From Candidatus Praeruminimicrobium purgamenti (GTDB lineage Bacteria > Elusimicrobiota > Endomicrobiia > Endomicrobiales > Endomicrobiaceae), in NCBI GenBank assembly GCA_018433585.1, contig JAHDQW010000001.1, positions 248,001-312,000 on the forward strand: 64,000 bases of DNA. The letters run 5' to 3'. Under the pieces are notes generated by a model, which was not told where the DNA came from, made no database searches, and saw only the letters and a list, made by a program, of their open reading frames with translations. A program made the translations under genes and the position numbers. This document shows positions 23,477 to 32,242 of the stretch, in pieces. Each line of letters starts with the position of its first letter. Positions within the stretch are counted from its first letter, which is position 1.

Positions 23477-26400
23477 ATGAAATTAAAACAACTTTTGTTG
23501 TTGGTGCTCTTTTTTACTTTTTGTATATCATTAAATGTTTTTGCTGAAGATTTGAAAATTGAAGACGGTAAAACTGTGAAATATGGATTTAAGGGCAAAA
23601 ACACTAATACCTATGATGATACTAAGATTTATGATAATGTCTCTATAGGAGCCGGGACAAAAGTTGTTCTTGACAGCCAGTGGCAGTATATGTATGTAAG
23701 TTCAAATACAACAACGACATATTCCGAAGGTATTATGTATGACACTACTACGGTCCCTGTTTCTTCAACATCTGTTATAAATTCTACCGAAGATACAAAT
23801 TATAAATACAGAAATGACGAAGTCATAGCAACTCTCTCGTTAGTAAGTACGGGAACGCTTACTATTAATGCCGGCAGCGAACTGTCTTTAAGAAATCAAT
23901 ACAGTTTAATATCCTCGACCCAGGATGTCTCTTTGAAATATGCGGTTACCGGGAAAGACGCCGACGGCAAAGATATTATATCTCTGGATGAAGAAAATAC
24001 TACACTTAGCTCTAATAATACCGTTTATAACGGCACAACGAACAGAAATATATTAGGCGGAGTAACAGATCTTTTTACGGGTGATATAGTTTTCGGAGCA
24101 GGTATCGAGGACACAGTCTTGACATTTCAAGGGGTAGCGTCTTCTTCCGCCAAAGGAACTACAGGAGTATTGCCTACTGCAAAAGATTCTGAAACTGTTC
24201 CGGGCAAAGGTGTTACAGGAACAACTACTCTTATAGATACAATAGAGGACATTTCGGAAGGTAAGCCTACGCAAGATGCGGATTGGGCATCTTTTTCTAA
24301 TAACTTCAAAATTAATTCAAATAATGCCGTTTTTAACGTTTTGAGCGACGGAGTGTCTTTAAGCGGAGATATTACAGGCGACGGTACTGTTGTCAAATCA
24401 GGTTCAGGAAGGCTTCTCCTTATAGGTGATGCCACAGGCCTAACGGGAAATAATACAGGATATGCATGGAATATAAGATCAGGCTTCGTTATTGCTTATG
24501 AACAGAAGAATCTCGGCATGGGAGCTGTAAATATCGGGTCATCCGGAATACTTGGACTGGGTAATATTGATTATCCTCTTCCTCAGGTTTATACAAATGA
24601 TATTACTTCAAATGGAGGACTTCTCTCTCTTTCAGGGAACAGTAGTTATGTATTATCAGGAGATATAAGCGGGGAAAGCGTTTATTTTTCTTTAGGCGGA
24701 ACTACAAATCTTCGCTTAGCAGGAGAAAACACAGTTAATGATTTTATCGTTAATTTTGAAGGTGCAAACAACATTATAGAAGCTAATTCTGTAAGTTTGT
24801 CATCAAATTCAATAAGCGCTTTTAATGTTACAGAAGATGATGCTTCAAAAGAATTTTCTAATTTTACGTTATCGATAAATCAGAGCACTGACGGGGAATA
24901 TAAAGGATCATTAAACGGAGAAATGTACATTAAAAAGACAGGCAACGGAATTTTAACTCTTTCAGGTGTAAATACGTATAATCAGGGAACATATCTTTCG
25001 CAGGGCGGGATATTAATGACTAATGCAAGTTCTCTTGGAACAGGAAAGATTATGTTTGATTCGGGAGTAAGAGGAATCTCTTCCACATATGCTTCTTTGG
25101 GAGTATCAAGCTCTACGGTCGGTACAATAGATTTAGTTAATAATATTCATATAGACAAAGGCGCTGTTTTTAATGTGTATGAAAATCAGTCAATGTCACT
25201 TTACGGAGATGTGTTAAGCTATCATACTACGGCAGGCAACGAAGCTGAATTTGTAAAAACAGGCTTAGGACTTTTAGAAATAGCCAAAAGTTCATCGACT
25301 ACAAGAAAAGTAAATATATCTTCGTTTACTGTTCAGCAAGGCGGATTTAATTTAGATGAGAATGTAGTGCTTGATTCTTATTTTTCTTTAAACAGCGATT
25401 CCGCATATTTGAGCATGGAGAAAGGAGCCGGAGTCAAAAACGCAATAGATGTTAATGCAGGTGACCTTATAATATTTAACCAGTCAAATATAGCAGATGC
25501 TTCGGTAAATTTTAACAGTACTTCGACAGTTAATCTTTCTCAGTTAGTTACTTCGAGCAATACCGTACTTTCTACTACAACTTTAAATAACAGAATAAGC
25601 GTTGCAAAAGGCATCGACTTTGTAACGGATTCTACTACGACTGCTAATCTTAACGCATTCAATTTTCTTTCGGCTACGGATTCAATAATAAAAAAGAGCG
25701 GAGAAGGAAATTTAAATTTTAATACAAACGGAGTTGATTTTAATATCTCGAATTTATCTGTTAATGACGGATATTTTAATTTAGTTGCAAATTCAAGTAT
25801 GACTGTTTCAAGCACAACTGTTGTGGACGGAGGAATTTTGTCTTTTGAACAGGGTTCTTATTTCCAGTCAAGCGCAAGCGGAGTTGATGAAAAAATAGTA
25901 GTATCAAGCGGCGGTATAAAAATTTACGATGATAATAATATTGAAACCAGCACGCTGTTAAGTTTTGAAGGAACCGATAAAAATAATCTGGCAAAATTAA
26001 TAGTTGTTGCAGATAACGTAAATCTGACAAACAGCATTTTTGTAAAAACAGGCGTTATTGTTGAAAATGAAAATTCTTTAACGATTTCCGGCGATTCTAT
26101 AAATTATGATTCGGCTGCAAGCGGTATTTTCGGGAAATCCGGTGCAGGGACAATGACTATAGCTCAAACTTCCGGCGGTGCCGGGTTTAATATGGGAGAA
26201 TTAGCCGTTATAGAAGGATTAATGAATATTACTACGGATGTGAATGTTTCGACATCGGTAGTAACAGGCAATACTTCAAGCATGTATATAAACACTTCTA
26301 CGATGACGGTTGTTAATGATTTTAATCTGTTCAATTACGATGAAATGAAAATTTTATCCGCTAAATTGAATGTAGGCAATGATCTTGCTCTTTCCAGCGG

Positions 26401-28402
26401 AAGTTTCACAGTTAATAATTCAACTGTGTCTGTAAGCAATGTTCTTGATTCTAACAACATGGCTGCTTTTGACGTTATAAAATCATCAGTAACGGCATCA
26501 TCTTTAGGTATAGCCGATATGAGCAGCAGCGTAAATATAAGTTCATCAAACGTTTTTGTTTCAAGCTCAGCTGTTTTTTCAAATCTGGCAGGGGTTAATA
26601 TCTCCGACTCAGGTTTGACTTTAGGCAGTAATTTCGATTTGTCTTATTCTACTTCTTCATTATCGTTGTCTTCTTTATCTGTCGGTAAAAATATGATATT
26701 TGATGCTTCATACGTTTCAATGAGCACTGCGTCAATAAATGTTTCAAGCGGTGCATATTTGACTAATGTAAATTTGGCAATGAGTTCTTCCAGCATATCT
26801 GCAGATTATATGTCTGTTTATAATTCTACGGTAACATTGAGAGACAATTCTGTTTTGGCTTCGGCAGTGGATTTAAATAATGCTGCAATATTAAAAGGGT
26901 TCGGTTCTGTAAACGGTTCTCTTAACGTGAAATCAAATGCTGCCGTTTCTATAGGAGAAACAGCATTGCAGCTAGGGCAGATGAGCGTTAACTCTGCAAG
27001 ATTTAATGCAGGATCAACTTTATATATAGACGTTAAAAGTTCCAACAGTGCGACAAGCAATGATAAGTTGGCTGTAAACGGAAACCTTGTCGTTGAAGAC
27101 GGAGTAACTCTTAACGTAAATATTACGGGAGACAATTCTGAATTTGCCAGAAAGAAAAGTTTTGAAATTATAACTTATACAGGTGTTTTGGATCCGTTAA
27201 ATGCTGCGATTTTCTCTAATATAGAGCTGAGCAGCGCAAGATTAAAAGCTGATGTTCAATCTACGGGAAGTTCTGTTATATTAAACATATTCCAAAGATG
27301 GACAAATTATTCGCTGCCTGGTGCATCTGTTAACCAGCAGGGTATGATGGATGCTTTGAATGATATTTACGCAGATTCTGAAGCAAGCATTATTCTTGCC
27401 GCGACTTTGGCAAAGACAGATGAACTTTACGGAGATTATCAGGATACGGGAGACAGTACTGCATTTATAGCGGCGCTGGCCGATTTATCGGGATTGATGT
27501 ATGCTAATTCATTTGAATCAAGCATACTTCTTGCAAACTCAAAAGTAGGTTTTATTTATAACAGATTGGCTGATTTTGAAAGCAGACCTCAGAATAACAT
27601 TTGGGCCCAGGCATATACAAATACGCACAGTATTGCAAAGAACGGCGGCAATTCAAAGTTTGAAAATTCTGTTACAGGTTTGATTGCAGGATTTGATACT
27701 TTTACAAATCAGGATTTTGTTATGGGTATCTCCGGTTTTTACGGTTCAGGACAATTTAAACAGTCTGAAGATAAAGCCGATATTGACGAAGCCGGTGTGA
27801 ATGCTTATGCGTATTACCAATATGACGATATTGAAATAAAAGGATTGATAGGATACGGAGTACAAGATTATGAAGCTACAAGAAAGTTAAGATTTATCAG
27901 CCAGGAAGTAAAGTCAAAATACGCTGTTAATACTTTGAGTTTCGATATGGAAGCTTCATACAAATATTCTATAAACAATGAAATAGTTCTTAAACCTTTA
28001 ATGGGCTTAAACTGCACGGTTGCTTCAAATAATGACATTGTTGAAGACGGAAATCTCGAGCAAAAATTGAAAATAGACGCAGGAAGTTATACAAAAGCCG
28101 ATTTTAGAATCGGTTTGGGATTACAAAGCAATAATTCGTCAAAATTCAATTGGTATGTTTCAGCCGTTGCAAAACAAGTTGTTGACGGAGATAAATTGAC
28201 TATGACTGCAAGCTTTGCAGAAGTTCCTGATGAAAAATTTGAAATTGAAAGCACTAAGCTTTCAGATACTGTTTTCTCAGGCAATATAGGCGGCGTTTAT
28301 TCTCTCACAAAAGATGTTGATTTGTTTATAGATTTATCAACAGATACGTCTTCAAGCACAAATATGTTGAGCGGAAACGTAGGTGCGTCTTATAAGTGGT
28401 AA
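23477..28402 (+). CDS. Large type V autotransporter (beta-helix passenger, C-terminal barrel)
   Basis: A 1641-residue secreted protein. A signal peptide ends at VFA near residue 23. The passenger carries autotransporter-associated repeats of the form KTGxGxLxLxG: VKSGSGRLLLIG, KKTGNGILTLSG, VKTGLGLLEIAK, KKSGEGNLNF and GKSGAGTMTIAQ. Residues ~940-1140 are very Ser/Thr-rich, consistent with a beta-helix. About the last 270 residues form the translocator barrel (from around IWAQAYTNT) and end in Trp, the usual outer-membrane C-terminal aromatic. The surface role (adhesion or other) cannot be read from sequence. It is monocistronic, with its own promoter and terminator. Confidence 0.9.
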   Translation: MKLKQLLLLVLFFTFCISLNVFAEDLKIEDGKTVKYGFKGKNTNTYDDTKIYDNVSIGAGTKVVLDSQWQYMYVSSNTTTTYSEGIMYDTTTVPVSSTSVINSTEDTNYKYRNDEVIATLSLVSTGTLTINAGSELSLRNQYSLISSTQDVSLKYAVTGKDADGKDIISLDEENTTLSSNNTVYNGTTNRNILGGVTDLFTGDIVFGAGIEDTVLTFQGVASSSAKGTTGVLPTAKDSETVPGKGVTGTTTLIDTIEDISEGKPTQDADWASFSNNFKINSNNAVFNVLSDGVSLSGDITGDGTVVKSGSGRLLLIGDATGLTGNNTGYAWNIRSGFVIAYEQKNLGMGAVNIGSSGILGLGNIDYPLPQVYTNDITSNGGLLSLSGNSSYVLSGDISGESVYFSLGGTTNLRLAGENTVNDFIVNFEGANNIIEANSVSLSSNSISAFNVTEDDASKEFSNFTLSINQSTDGEYKGSLNGEMYIKKTGNGILTLSGVNTYNQGTYLSQGGILMTNASSLGTGKIMFDSGVRGISSTYASLGVSSSTVGTIDLVNNIHIDKGAVFNVYENQSMSLYGDVLSYHTTAGNEAEFVKTGLGLLEIAKSSSTTRKVNISSFTVQQGGFNLDENVVLDSYFSLNSDSAYLSMEKGAGVKNAIDVNAGDLIIFNQSNIADASVNFNSTSTVNLSQLVTSSNTVLSTTTLNNRISVAKGIDFVTDSTTTANLNAFNFLSATDSIIKKSGEGNLNFNTNGVDFNISNLSVNDGYFNLVANSSMTVSSTTVVDGGILSFEQGSYFQSSASGVDEKIVVSSGGIKIYDDNNIETSTLLSFEGTDKNNLAKLIVVADNVNLTNSIFVKTGVIVENENSLTISGDSINYDSAASGIFGKSGAGTMTIAQTSGGAGFNMGELAVIEGLMNITTDVNVSTSVVTGNTSSMYINTSTMTVVNDFNLFNYDEMKILSAKLNVGNDLALSSGSFTVNNSTVSVSNVLDSNNMAAFDVIKSSVTASSLGIADMSSSVNISSSNVFVSSSAVFSNLAGVNISDSGLTLGSNFDLSYSTSSLSLSSLSVGKNMIFDASYVSMSTASINVSSGAYLTNVNLAMSSSSISADYMSVYNSTVTLRDNSVLASAVDLNNAAILKGFGSVNGSLNVKSNAAVSIGETALQLGQMSVNSARFNAGSTLYIDVKSSNSATSNDKLAVNGNLVVEDGVTLNVNITGDNSEFARKKSFEIITYTGVLDPLNAAIFSNIELSSARLKADVQSTGSSVILNIFQRWTNYSLPGASVNQQGMMDALNDIYADSEASIILAATLAKTDELYGDYQDTGDSTAFIAALADLSGLMYANSFESSILLANSKVGFIYNRLADFESRPQNNIWAQAYTNTHSIAKNGGNSKFENSVTGLIAGFDTFTNQDFVMGISGFYGSGQFKQSEDKADIDEAGVNAYAYYQYDDIEIKGLIGYGVQDYEATRKLRFISQEVKSKYAVNTLSFDMEASYKYSINNEIVLKPLMGLNCTVASNNDIVEDGNLEQKLKIDAGSYTKADFRIGLGLQSNNSSKFNWYVSAVAKQVVDGDKLTMTASFAEVPDEKFEIESTKLSDTVFSGNIGGVYSLTKDVDLFIDLSTDTSSSTNMLSGNVGASYKW

Positions 28403-28502: not shown

Positions 28503-28575
28503 TGCCCGATGGAGTAATTGGTAACACGTCTGCCTCTGGAGCAGAAGTCTCCTGGTTCGAGTCCAGGTCGGGCAG
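28503..28575 (+). tRNA. tRNA-Gln (anticodon CUG)
   Basis: A complete cloverleaf of 73 nt: acceptor TGCCCGA with TCGGGCA, anticodon stem TCTGC/GCAGA around loop CTCTGGA (anticodon CTG), T-arm CCTGG-TTCGAGT-CCAGG and discriminator G. CCA is not encoded. It reads CAG codons. Confidence 0.96.
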
Positions 28576-30737: not shown

Positions 30738-30766
30738 TTGACAAATTTATTTTTTTTGTATATAAT
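30738..30766 (+). promoter_or_regulatory. Perfect consensus sigma-70 promoter of the leader/yezD unit
   Basis: TTGACA at 30738-30743, exactly 17 nt, TATAAT at 30761-30766. It matches the sigma-70 consensus at all 12 bases. The start would be near 30773, giving a leader transcript of about 255 nt before yezD. Confidence 0.88.
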
Positions 30767-30840
30767 CATACTTAATTGATATGAATAGTATGAAATAAGA
30801 AAAATTGATGTTAGATTTTATTTTGAAAGGGGGAATGAGA

Positions 30841-30924
30841 ATGTTTGGTTATTTTAGAAATTTTAATATGATGATGTGTTGTATGTCGATGTGCGGCTTT
30901 GATACGGCAGGTGCGAGCATGTAA
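30841..30924 (+). CDS. Met/Cys-rich leader peptide (27 residues)
   Basis: The frame opens with ATG 30841 after a very strong ribosome site (AAAGGGGGAA) and ends at TAA 30922-30924. The 27-residue product contains seven Met and three Cys, concentrated in MMMCCMSMC (codons 10-18). It follows a consensus promoter and is followed by a terminator hairpin and then yezD. Such an arrangement is typical of amino-acid-sensing leader peptides; sulfur amino acids would be the signal. It has no membrane or signal features and is unlikely to have a separate function, though this cannot be excluded. Confidence 0.7.
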   Translation: MFGYFRNFNMMMCCMSMCGFDTAGASM

Positions 30925-30992
30925 CAATTATTAAAACATAATTATTAAAACATATATCCACTGCCAAAGCAAAAACAGGCTGTGGTTTTTTT
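30906..30992 (+). promoter_or_regulatory. Candidate transcription attenuator: alternative antiterminator and terminator
   Basis: Terminator: CCACTGCC (30958-30965) pairs with GGCTGTGG (30978-30985), with one T-T mismatch, a 12-nt loop and seven T (30986-30992). Competitor: GGCAGGTG (30906-30913), inside the leader ORF, can pair with CACTGCC (30959-30965) as 7 bp with one bulged G, taking the terminator's 5' arm. A ribosome stalled at the Met/Cys codons would leave 30906-30913 free (read-through); one that reaches the stop codon would cover it (termination). Confidence 0.6.
30926..30953 (+). repeat. Tandem 14-bp direct repeat in the attenuator
   Basis: Two exact adjacent copies of AATTATTAAAACAT (30926-30939 and 30940-30953) sit between the leader stop codon and the terminator. 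They may act as an unstructured spacer or arise by slippage. Confidence 0.85.
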
Positions 30993-31028
30993 ATTTTCAA
31001 AAGGATGTTCTAAAAAGGAGATTTTAAA

Positions 31029-31211
31029 ATGAGTTTAAAAGAAAGTATAGTAAATGACGGAATTATAAAAGATATAAGAGATGCAGTGGAAGGATTATCG
31101 TACGGCACTGTTATAATTACGGTGCATAATAAAAGAATAACGCAAATCGAAATATCTAAAAAACAAAGGTTTGACGATATTTGGAATGTTGATGAAGGAG
31201 GTGGAATTTAA
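31029..31211 (+). CDS. YezD-family (DUF2292) small protein
   Basis: A 60-residue protein that matches the DUF2292/YezD pattern by eye: an N-terminal helix (SIVNDGIIKDIRDAVEGL) followed by strands YGTVIITVHNKRITQIEISKKQR. AGGAG at 31016-31020 sets the start. The function is unknown; I recall YezD-type genes commonly near sulfate uptake or cysteine synthesis genes. The Met/Cys leader upstream independently points to sulfur metabolism. It is probably co-transcribed with the DUF3034 barrel. Confidence 0.72.
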   Translation: MSLKESIVNDGIIKDIRDAVEGLSYGTVIITVHNKRITQIEISKKQRFDDIWNVDEGGGI

Positions 31212-31231
31212 ATTATTAAAAAAGGTCGTTT

Positions 31232-31254
31232 CTCTCAACGGATAAGCCGTAGAG
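31232..31254 (+). other. Hairpin between yezD and the DUF3034 gene
   Basis: CTCT (31232-31235) and ACGG (31238-31241) pair with CCGT (31247-31250) and AGAG (31251-31254); a CA bulge and a 5-nt loop. No T-run follows, so a role in mRNA processing or stability is more likely than termination. Confidence 0.4.
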
Positions 31255-31332
31255 CATTCAAAAAACAAATAGTGTAAATACAACCAGTCAGCTGGAATAA
31301 AAAGCACAAAAACAAAATAAGGAGATGTTAAA

Positions 31333-32169
31333 ATGAAAAAAATTAAATTATTCGCAGCGGCTTTATTTCTGACGGTTGTAGCAGTAAAATATGTCTTTGC
31401 CGGGGCTCCTCTTACAAATTTGGAAGGTGTGGGAGGTGTGGCATTTAATCCTCTGGCATATTTGGCAGATTCGGAAGGTACAGAAAGTCATTTGAAAATC
31501 GGAGATACTGATGTAGTCGGTAAGCCGAGATTTGGAGCATGGTATGTCAGCCTCAGCAATGTAAACGTTGACTGGACTGCTGTCGGTATAGCCGATACAT
31601 TCTTTAACAGGCTGGAAGTTTCTTACGGTTATGAAACTGTTAATCAGGATAATGCAACGGCAAAGCACAAAAATAATATCGGTGCTAAATTATTGATTTT
31701 GCCTGAAAATTATGCCGGTGCAAAGTTCTTGCCTGCCGTGTCGATTGGCACAATATGGAAGCAGACTTCTAACGTCGGCACAGGTGTGGAGGATAATGCT
31801 TTTGACTACTATGCCGTTGCGACAAAATTAGTTACCCAATTGCCTGCTCCTGTGTTGGTTTCAGGAGGCGCTCTTTCCACAAAAGGCAAAACTACGGGAG
31901 TTTTTGGTTATGACAAAGACAGAGAACTGACAGGATTTGCCAATATTGACGTGATTCTTCCTGTAAATATATTAGCTGGTTTTGAATACAAACAGGGAGC
32001 AAATTATTCGGATTGGAAAGATTCTGATTATTGGGACACTCATATAGCGTGGACGCCTGATAAAAATCTTACTTTGGTTCTTGCTTATGTTAACGCCGGA
32101 GATTATAAATCAACGAGTAAGGTAGGGCTGGGGGAAGGAGTGGTTTGGAGCGTGCAATATGCGTTTTAA
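31333..32169 (+). CDS. DUF3034-family outer-membrane barrel protein
   Basis: A 278-residue exported protein: signal peptide ending at FAG near residue 23-24, then APLTNLEGVGGVAFNPLAYLA, the hallmark opening of DUF3034. The rest alternates in beta-strand style and ends in Phe, as outer-membrane barrels do. AAGGAG precedes the ATG. Its function is unknown; downstream of yezD and the Met/Cys leader it may admit or handle a sulfur compound at the outer membrane (inference). A strong terminator follows. Confidence 0.8.
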   Translation: MKKIKLFAAALFLTVVAVKYVFAGAPLTNLEGVGGVAFNPLAYLADSEGTESHLKIGDTDVVGKPRFGAWYVSLSNVNVDWTAVGIADTFFNRLEVSYGYETVNQDNATAKHKNNIGAKLLILPENYAGAKFLPAVSIGTIWKQTSNVGTGVEDNAFDYYAVATKLVTQLPAPVLVSGGALSTKGKTTGVFGYDKDRELTGFANIDVILPVNILAGFEYKQGANYSDWKDSDYWDTHIAWTPDKNLTLVLAYVNAGDYKSTSKVGLGEGVVWSVQYAF

Positions 32170-32200: not shown

Positions 32201-32242
32201 AAAACCCGTCGGAGCTATTAAATAAATTCGACGGGTTTTTTT
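32201..32242 (+). terminator. Terminator after the DUF3034 gene
   Basis: A perfect 11-bp stem (32201-32211 with 32229-32239, core ACCCGTCG), a 17-nt loop, continuing into T's. Confidence 0.9.

Follow-up and report, generated by a model that had tools for sequence, protein, structure and literature searches.

A Met/Cys-coding leader, an intrinsic terminator and a competing hairpin ahead of yezD in an Elusimicrobiota genome, probably a cysteine-tRNA-reading attenuator

As listed in Table 1, the yezD-DUF3034 gene pair of Candidatus Praeruminimicrobium purgamenti is preceded by a short leader ORF rich in Met and Cys codons, by an intrinsic terminator and by a hairpin that competes with this terminator. 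The window, which is the whole 64,000-nucleotide stretch analysed, covers positions 248,001 to 312,000 of contig JAHDQW010000001.1. Computation establishes that the ORF, terminator and competing hairpin exist and that their arrangement before sulfur genes is conserved. Together they most likely represent a ribosome-mediated transcription attenuator that responds to how much charged cysteine tRNA is available, with a possible contribution of methionine to the signal, and that controls yezD and DUF3034. The original prediction of a sulfur-responsive attenuator is largely supported and correct in outline. Its ribosome-stalling geometry agrees with the RNA folds and with the related loci, whereas leader translation, stalling, the sensed amino acid and read-through in the cell are the parts that we infer. 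When cysteine is plentiful, the ribosome would complete the 27-codon leader and sit at its stop codon, where it would cover 30906-30916 and melt the inner helix, so that the terminator would form and transcription would stop. When cysteine is short, the ribosome would wait at codons 13-18, upstream of 30906. The 3' end of the leader would then pair with the terminator 5' arm as this arm is transcribed, the terminator would be blocked, and the polymerase would read into yezD and DUF3034. Because the relatives stand before sulfate-uptake and cysteine-making genes in two phyla, the element is most likely an on-switch at low charged cysteine tRNA.

Table 1. Features of the leader region and of the genes behind it (positions in the window)
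Feature	Position	Strand	Basis
Sigma-70-type promoter, TTGACA-17-TATAAT	30738..30766	+	12/12 consensus, best of region
Ribosome-binding site of leader ORF, AAAGGGGGA	30826..30834	+	read from sequence
27-codon leader peptide ORF, MFGYFRNFNMMMCCMSMCGFDTAGASM	30841..30924	+	sequence; Cys-rich leaders at related loci
Met/Cys putative control codons 10-18 (MMMCCMSMC)	30868..30894	+	0/5000 shuffles
Antiterminator 5' arm in last leader codons, pairing with about 30956-30965	30906..30916	+	arm-pairing tests, nascent and ribosome-state folds
Inner antiterminator helix region across leader stop codon	30919..30951	+	nascent folds, 18 members
Intrinsic terminator CCACTGCC...GGCTGTGG + U-tract	30958..30992	+	folding; kept in relatives
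yezD (DUF2292), 60 aa, regulated gene in the model	31029..31211	+	PF10055, E 2.7e-10
DUF3034 outer-membrane-type protein, second gene of block	31333..32169	+	PF11231, E 2.2e-19; adjoins yezD at relatives
Probable operon terminator AACCCGTCG...CGACGGGTT + T-tract	32203..32242	+	read from sequence; not in scanner list (loop limit 8)

The promoter matches the consensus at every position, as had been claimed, and lies 75 nt upstream of the leader ORF. All described parts of this ORF are present in the sequence, including the ribosome site, the 7 Met (start included) and 3 Cys of the product, and the run at codons 10-18. MMMCCM at 30868 is the sole Met/Cys run of at least 5 residues with Cys in the six frames of the 64-kb window. 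No ORF with an equally dense run arose in 5000 dinucleotide shuffles of 30773-30958, and chance is excluded by these shuffles. Among the Rfam models compared with the window, only tRNAs reach the gathering threshold, and 17 yezD loci gave zero matches at E<=1; no Rfam match places the element in a known riboswitch, T-box or leader family. Also, a scan of 341 genomes of the window's phylum with the DNA pattern of the Met/Cys run, allowing 1 mismatch, gave an exact match in the host genome only and five 1-mismatch matches. The YezD-type gene and the DUF3034 gene expected after the terminator were both identified by their Pfam matches. We take YezD to resemble the OscA-type small proteins. The oscA gene is found together with genes for sulfate transporters, and cells that lose it become more sensitive to chromate (PMC2996968). 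Between yezD and DUF3034, the 120-nt gap (31212-31332) contains a possible hairpin, CTCTCAACGG...CCGTAGAG, with no T-tract, and the gap is of similar size at relatives. Further upstream, 23477-28402 encodes a 1641-residue autotransporter (PF03797) whose passenger is rich in Ser and Thr, and a tRNA lies just after it at 28503-28575.

The terminator postulated ahead of the YezD-type gene was found as a hairpin at 30958-30985 with a U-tract at 30986-30992 (-8.7 kcal/mol); the terminator scanner missed it because loops of more than 8 bases were excluded. The leader segment GGCAGGTG (30906-30913), proposed to disrupt this terminator, is complementary to 30958-30965. The proposed pairing is thus present, but the antiterminator is longer than suggested and its inner helix spans the leader stop codon. 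In window folds of free RNA, a ribosome placed on a Cys codon leaves the terminator 5' arm paired to the leader (0.83-0.96), and a ribosome at the stop codon leaves it paired to the terminator 3' arm (0.74-0.85). The two states that had been foreseen were therefore recovered by folding, the antiterminator for a stall at Cys and the terminator for a ribosome at the stop. When GGCAG was broken in silico, the terminator was restored and the switch was lost. Folded as a whole, the 228-nt leader is unremarkable (z -0.13); the whole-leader z-score is uninformative, and the strong evidence comes from relatives.

Related elements were analysed at 21 loci, which belong either to the phylum that contains an Omnitrophota MAG or to the window's own phylum, with gene identities assigned by Pfam and NCBIfam; the genome scans cover these two phyla, and the relatives are MAGs that are mutually non-independent. 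A Cys-rich leader ORF with 2-5 Cys is present in 21 of 21 loci, where the leaders at yezD loci were chosen for Cys content and the covariance model used for the others was trained on Cys-rich leaders. A clear intrinsic terminator is present in 20 of the 21. The genes that follow are yezD-DUF3034-metY, metY, DUF2061-cysH, cysH, a sulfate-binding protein gene and, once, a porin gene. It can be seen that yezD is kept as a target, but the targets belong to sulfate assimilation generally and not to yezD alone. Two close YezD relatives are located in genome contigs, one titled Omnitrophota and one binned as Paceibacterota. Both have the leader MVIYIKDLNMMMCCLGLCSL[W/R]GRGGPPM, then a CCCACTACC...AGTGGGTTTTTT terminator, yezD and metY, the gene of O-acetylhomoserine sulfhydrylase, and in both an Rrf2-family gene ends just upstream. 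In the phylum of the Omnitrophota-titled relative, yezD was found in 97 of 384 genomes. Further leaders upstream of yezD are MTIYFKNLNMMMCCMAMCCCGMGGPPM (L044), MNRLFSSIPMMMCCLAVCRLRGGGGPPV (L078), MAKYPQDMMRRMMCCLRGRGGPFV (L041), MFRKNRNPIMCMCPMTMTGGGWMRRC (L053) and MKYPARQRKRSMCCMVMRCFRSRGEPPM (L114). The flank of all 12 leader-bearing yezD loci contains metY and/or cysK, with DUF3034 present as well at nine of them. Since other yezD loci, some of them in the same gene context, carry no leader, the leader is an optional module.

Six non-yezD members were obtained by scanning with an RNA covariance model built from 11 members, and were not picked by gene. They precede DUF2061-cysH (MRAAMYCYMGMCCLLGRGRSPM in L126, L127, and MLKFFYKKFYCIMMCCLYGRRWSM in L131), metY (MNINYFFNLNIMRIYCCCGMWEPPM, L128), and cysH with a PHO4-family permease (MAVNCYGMMCCMQMRGSLARGGCFM, L129; MTALFSGIMCCIKN, L134). 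A second draw of model matches added L165 (DUF2061-cysH) and L166 (yezD, then a metY-like gene). The model scan of 336 genomes of the window's phylum gave two more members, MNANKYQMMMCMCSRSAGEGFIAL (L148) before a sulfate ABC transporter substrate-binding protein gene (NF008022, E 1.7e-163) and MLKINCCEMMCMCNFSLGEGDTAL (L150) before a Porin_O_P gene. Among the stronger matches, L164 has a leader, L130 has a terminator and then yezD with no leader, L132 carries an ORF that resembles a leader but encodes no Cys, followed by a DUF2061-like gene, and L133 has a terminator only. These are exceptions to the general pattern, and L130 and L132 speak against the attenuator. Weak matches in genus g10 of the window's family lie within a coding frame and were dismissed. 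The gene just after them is, in our own reading, presumably NifU-like.

Several yezD loci show other upstream arrangements. L053, L059 and L106 form a divergent subfamily of leaders that share the motif CPxTxTGGG, in which L106 has few Met/Cys in its run and no visible terminator. At L048, L049, L084 and L096, a promoter-like TTGACA followed by a CTCGATAGAGTTA-type sequence replaces the Cys leader, and these upstream sequences gave no Rfam match. At L077, the leader MVKLNNLILCFSGRMCCLSDWG stands directly before yezD without a terminator, and a hairpin beside the ribosome site suggests a translational version.

Besides the gene context, the predicted RNA switch itself is conserved. A test set beforehand asked whether relatives retain a Met/Cys run together with the competing pairing; they do, with a Cys-rich leader, terminator and antiterminator before sulfur-assimilation genes in two phyla. 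The terminator 5' arm is CCCACTACC in most members, CCACTGCC in the window, CCCACTTCC in L148 and L150, and CCCGCTGCC in L129, and it pairs with the last leader codons in all 18 analysed members; in 16 of the 18, a distance of 8-12 nt lies between the end of the leader arm and the stop codon. The arms of one species pair better with each other than with arms swapped between species (P 0.0025; 0.023 without near-duplicates), in tests that pool related, non-independent sequences. Additionally, the nascent fold, that of the RNA just before the terminator 3' arm, has one shape in 18 of 18 (summed z -9.5), in which an outer helix joins the leader end to the terminator 5' arm and encloses an inner helix that bridges the stop region. 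The inner helix sequences of L126, L127, L128, L129 and L131 are unrelated; therefore, this helix is kept as structure. Equilibrium folds with a stalled ribosome show a clear switch in the window, L044, L097, L129 and L131. Most other relatives still prefer the terminator in such folds; therefore, cotranscriptional trapping must be assumed, and nascent folding was used for this reason. In the search for compensatory changes in both stems, the terminator showed two positions with changes on both sides, but the outer helix, which is 91% paired among 11 core members, showed one-sided and no double changes, as counted on a MAFFT alignment in which the window leader arm is misregistered by 5 columns. 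An anti-antiterminator seen by eye, AUGAUGAUG with the post-stop CAUCAU, was unsupported as a conserved pairing (P 0.09; 0.35 dereplicated). Conserved pairing of the Met codons, as putative control codons, with the post-stop region, through which control could operate independently of translation, lacked support.

In the window, L148 and L150, the first nucleotide of the leader arm is at codon position 3, but in most relatives it is at position 1; therefore, the segment is kept as RNA and not as a peptide motif. This bears on nascent-peptide arrest, in which the conserved C-terminal GRGGPPM of many relatives, instead of slow decoding, would halt the ribosome in response to a sulfur metabolite. 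RGGPPM-like ends are indeed common at related loci. However, the motif is missing in the window (TAGASM), L148 (EGFIAL) and L131 (GRRWSM), the window, L148 and L150 read its nucleotides in a different frame, and base pairing accounts for the segment, which makes such arrest very unlikely. In the window, L148 and L150, 13-14 nt separate the start of the last Cys codon from the arm. This distance is about that to the front edge of a ribosome with the last Cys codon in its A site.

Control by an Rrf2-type repressor at the promoter, with a real terminator and an incidental leader ORF, would fit the Rrf2-family gene ahead of most relatives and the existence of yezD loci without a leader. It is very improbable all the same, as the window leader has its own promoter with no Rrf2 gene in front, and one common competing hairpin accompanies the Cys-rich leaders that are found repeatedly ahead of various sulfur genes in two phyla. 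The probable attenuator appears to be foreign to its host lineage. No yezD was found in 35 other genomes of the window's family, and the leader model gave no credible leader across this family except that of the window. The window YezD shares 73-75% identity with L012/L013, and the DUF3034 proteins of the window and L044 are 74% identical. Since yezD is missing from the other family genomes, the block looks horizontally acquired. In all likelihood the leader was transferred as one unit with yezD and DUF3034, with a presumed donor and direction. A plasmid search gave 3 distant YezD matches, and a phage search for YezD gave none.

Leaders with Cys codons are known from other bacteria. uORFC-8-2, before cysS in Rhodobacterales, combines a short ORF of tandem Cys codons with a following intrinsic terminator, as in the window, and its ribosome-mediated attenuation is predicted (PMC8632094). 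Compared by description, uORFC-8-2 is confined to Alphaproteobacteria and cysS and holds the Cys codons in its first stem (PMC8632094), whereas the window family precedes sulfate-assimilation genes, mixes Met and Cys codons and has an antiterminator spanning the stop codon; no cysS lies downstream at any member read. Polycysteine leader ORFs also precede mycobacterial cys operons (Seliverstov 2005, PMC1262725), and that of M. smegmatis is cysteine-responsive according to papers citing Canestrari 2020. They share with the window family the Cys codon run ahead of sulfur or cysteine genes, but are leaderless, have no conserved terminators and are described as translation attenuation, whereas the window has a ribosome site, a promoter 75 nt upstream and an intrinsic terminator. 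The trp, his, leu, thr and phe attenuators are similar in their control codons, in an antiterminator using the terminator 5' arm and in the decisive ribosome position; they differ in amino acids, target genes and sequences, and a pairing of control codons with the post-stop region is unsupported as a conserved feature here. The parts of an attenuator are present: a short ORF with a putative control-codon run (27 codons in the window; 21 related leaders), an intrinsic terminator between it and the first gene, a mutually exclusive antiterminator on the terminator 5' arm that would be free only while the ribosome waits at the control codons (in relatives by nascent folding only), and targets that make or import the amino acid (metY, cysK, cysH and the sulfate-binding protein in relatives), among which the window's own yezD-DUF3034 counts by association only. 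The open-access literature searched describes no Cys leader with a terminator for sulfate-assimilation operons or for these phyla, and a Cys leader with an intrinsic terminator only before alphaproteobacterial cysS. This kind of leader is already known, while the window RNA family, which precedes genes for taking up and assimilating sulfate in two phyla that have been little studied, and its gene set appear undescribed. The family offers a testable context for YezD (DUF2292), DUF3034 and DUF2061, and its RNA model can mark sulfur regulons in genomes without genetics.

The proposed Met/Cys signal stands in so far as the leaders are Cys-rich in all relatives, but Cys is more consistent than Met and, from the leader sequences, would be the likelier signal. 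The same attenuator might instead respond to charged Met-tRNA or to both amino acids together. Internal Met residues (about 85) outnumber Cys (63) across the 21 members, three leaders have Cys below Met by two or more, and the metY product is homocysteine. However, at least 2 Cys occur in 21 of 21 members, L134 has one internal Met only, the metY-cysK leader of the host genome contains one internal Met against 5 Cys, and cysH and sulfate-uptake targets supply cysteine first, so that a methionine or joint signal is rather unlikely. Similarly doubtful is the wider proposal of a horizontally mobile, cross-phylum RNA family acting as a general sulfur-assimilation switch, which would read interleaved Met and Cys codons and open yezD-DUF3034, metY, cysH and sulfate uptake when either amino acid runs short.

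The host genome has a metY-cysK pair at C8:324335-326538 and another metY-like gene. Before the pair, at about G000:C8 324193-324282 (L168/L200), 142-55 nt before the metY motif, lies the Cys-rich leader ORF MSYKNIKSLYINYICWRMCLFCCSCKRIN with a promoter-like TTGACA...TATATT and no visible terminator. Homologues of this leader exist in the same genus (G001, ...WRMCIFCCCNKIEVNKK) and in the same family (G007, ...WRMCLFCRSII). This second leader and its homologues are independent evidence that leader peptides serve the lineage as a means of sensing cysteine supply. Unrelated Cys-run leaders before metY were also observed elsewhere in the window's phylum, namely KRMCCCLNSLL (L186, G037), FCCCMRMCR (L202, G329) and FCRICPFCCFC (L216, G012).
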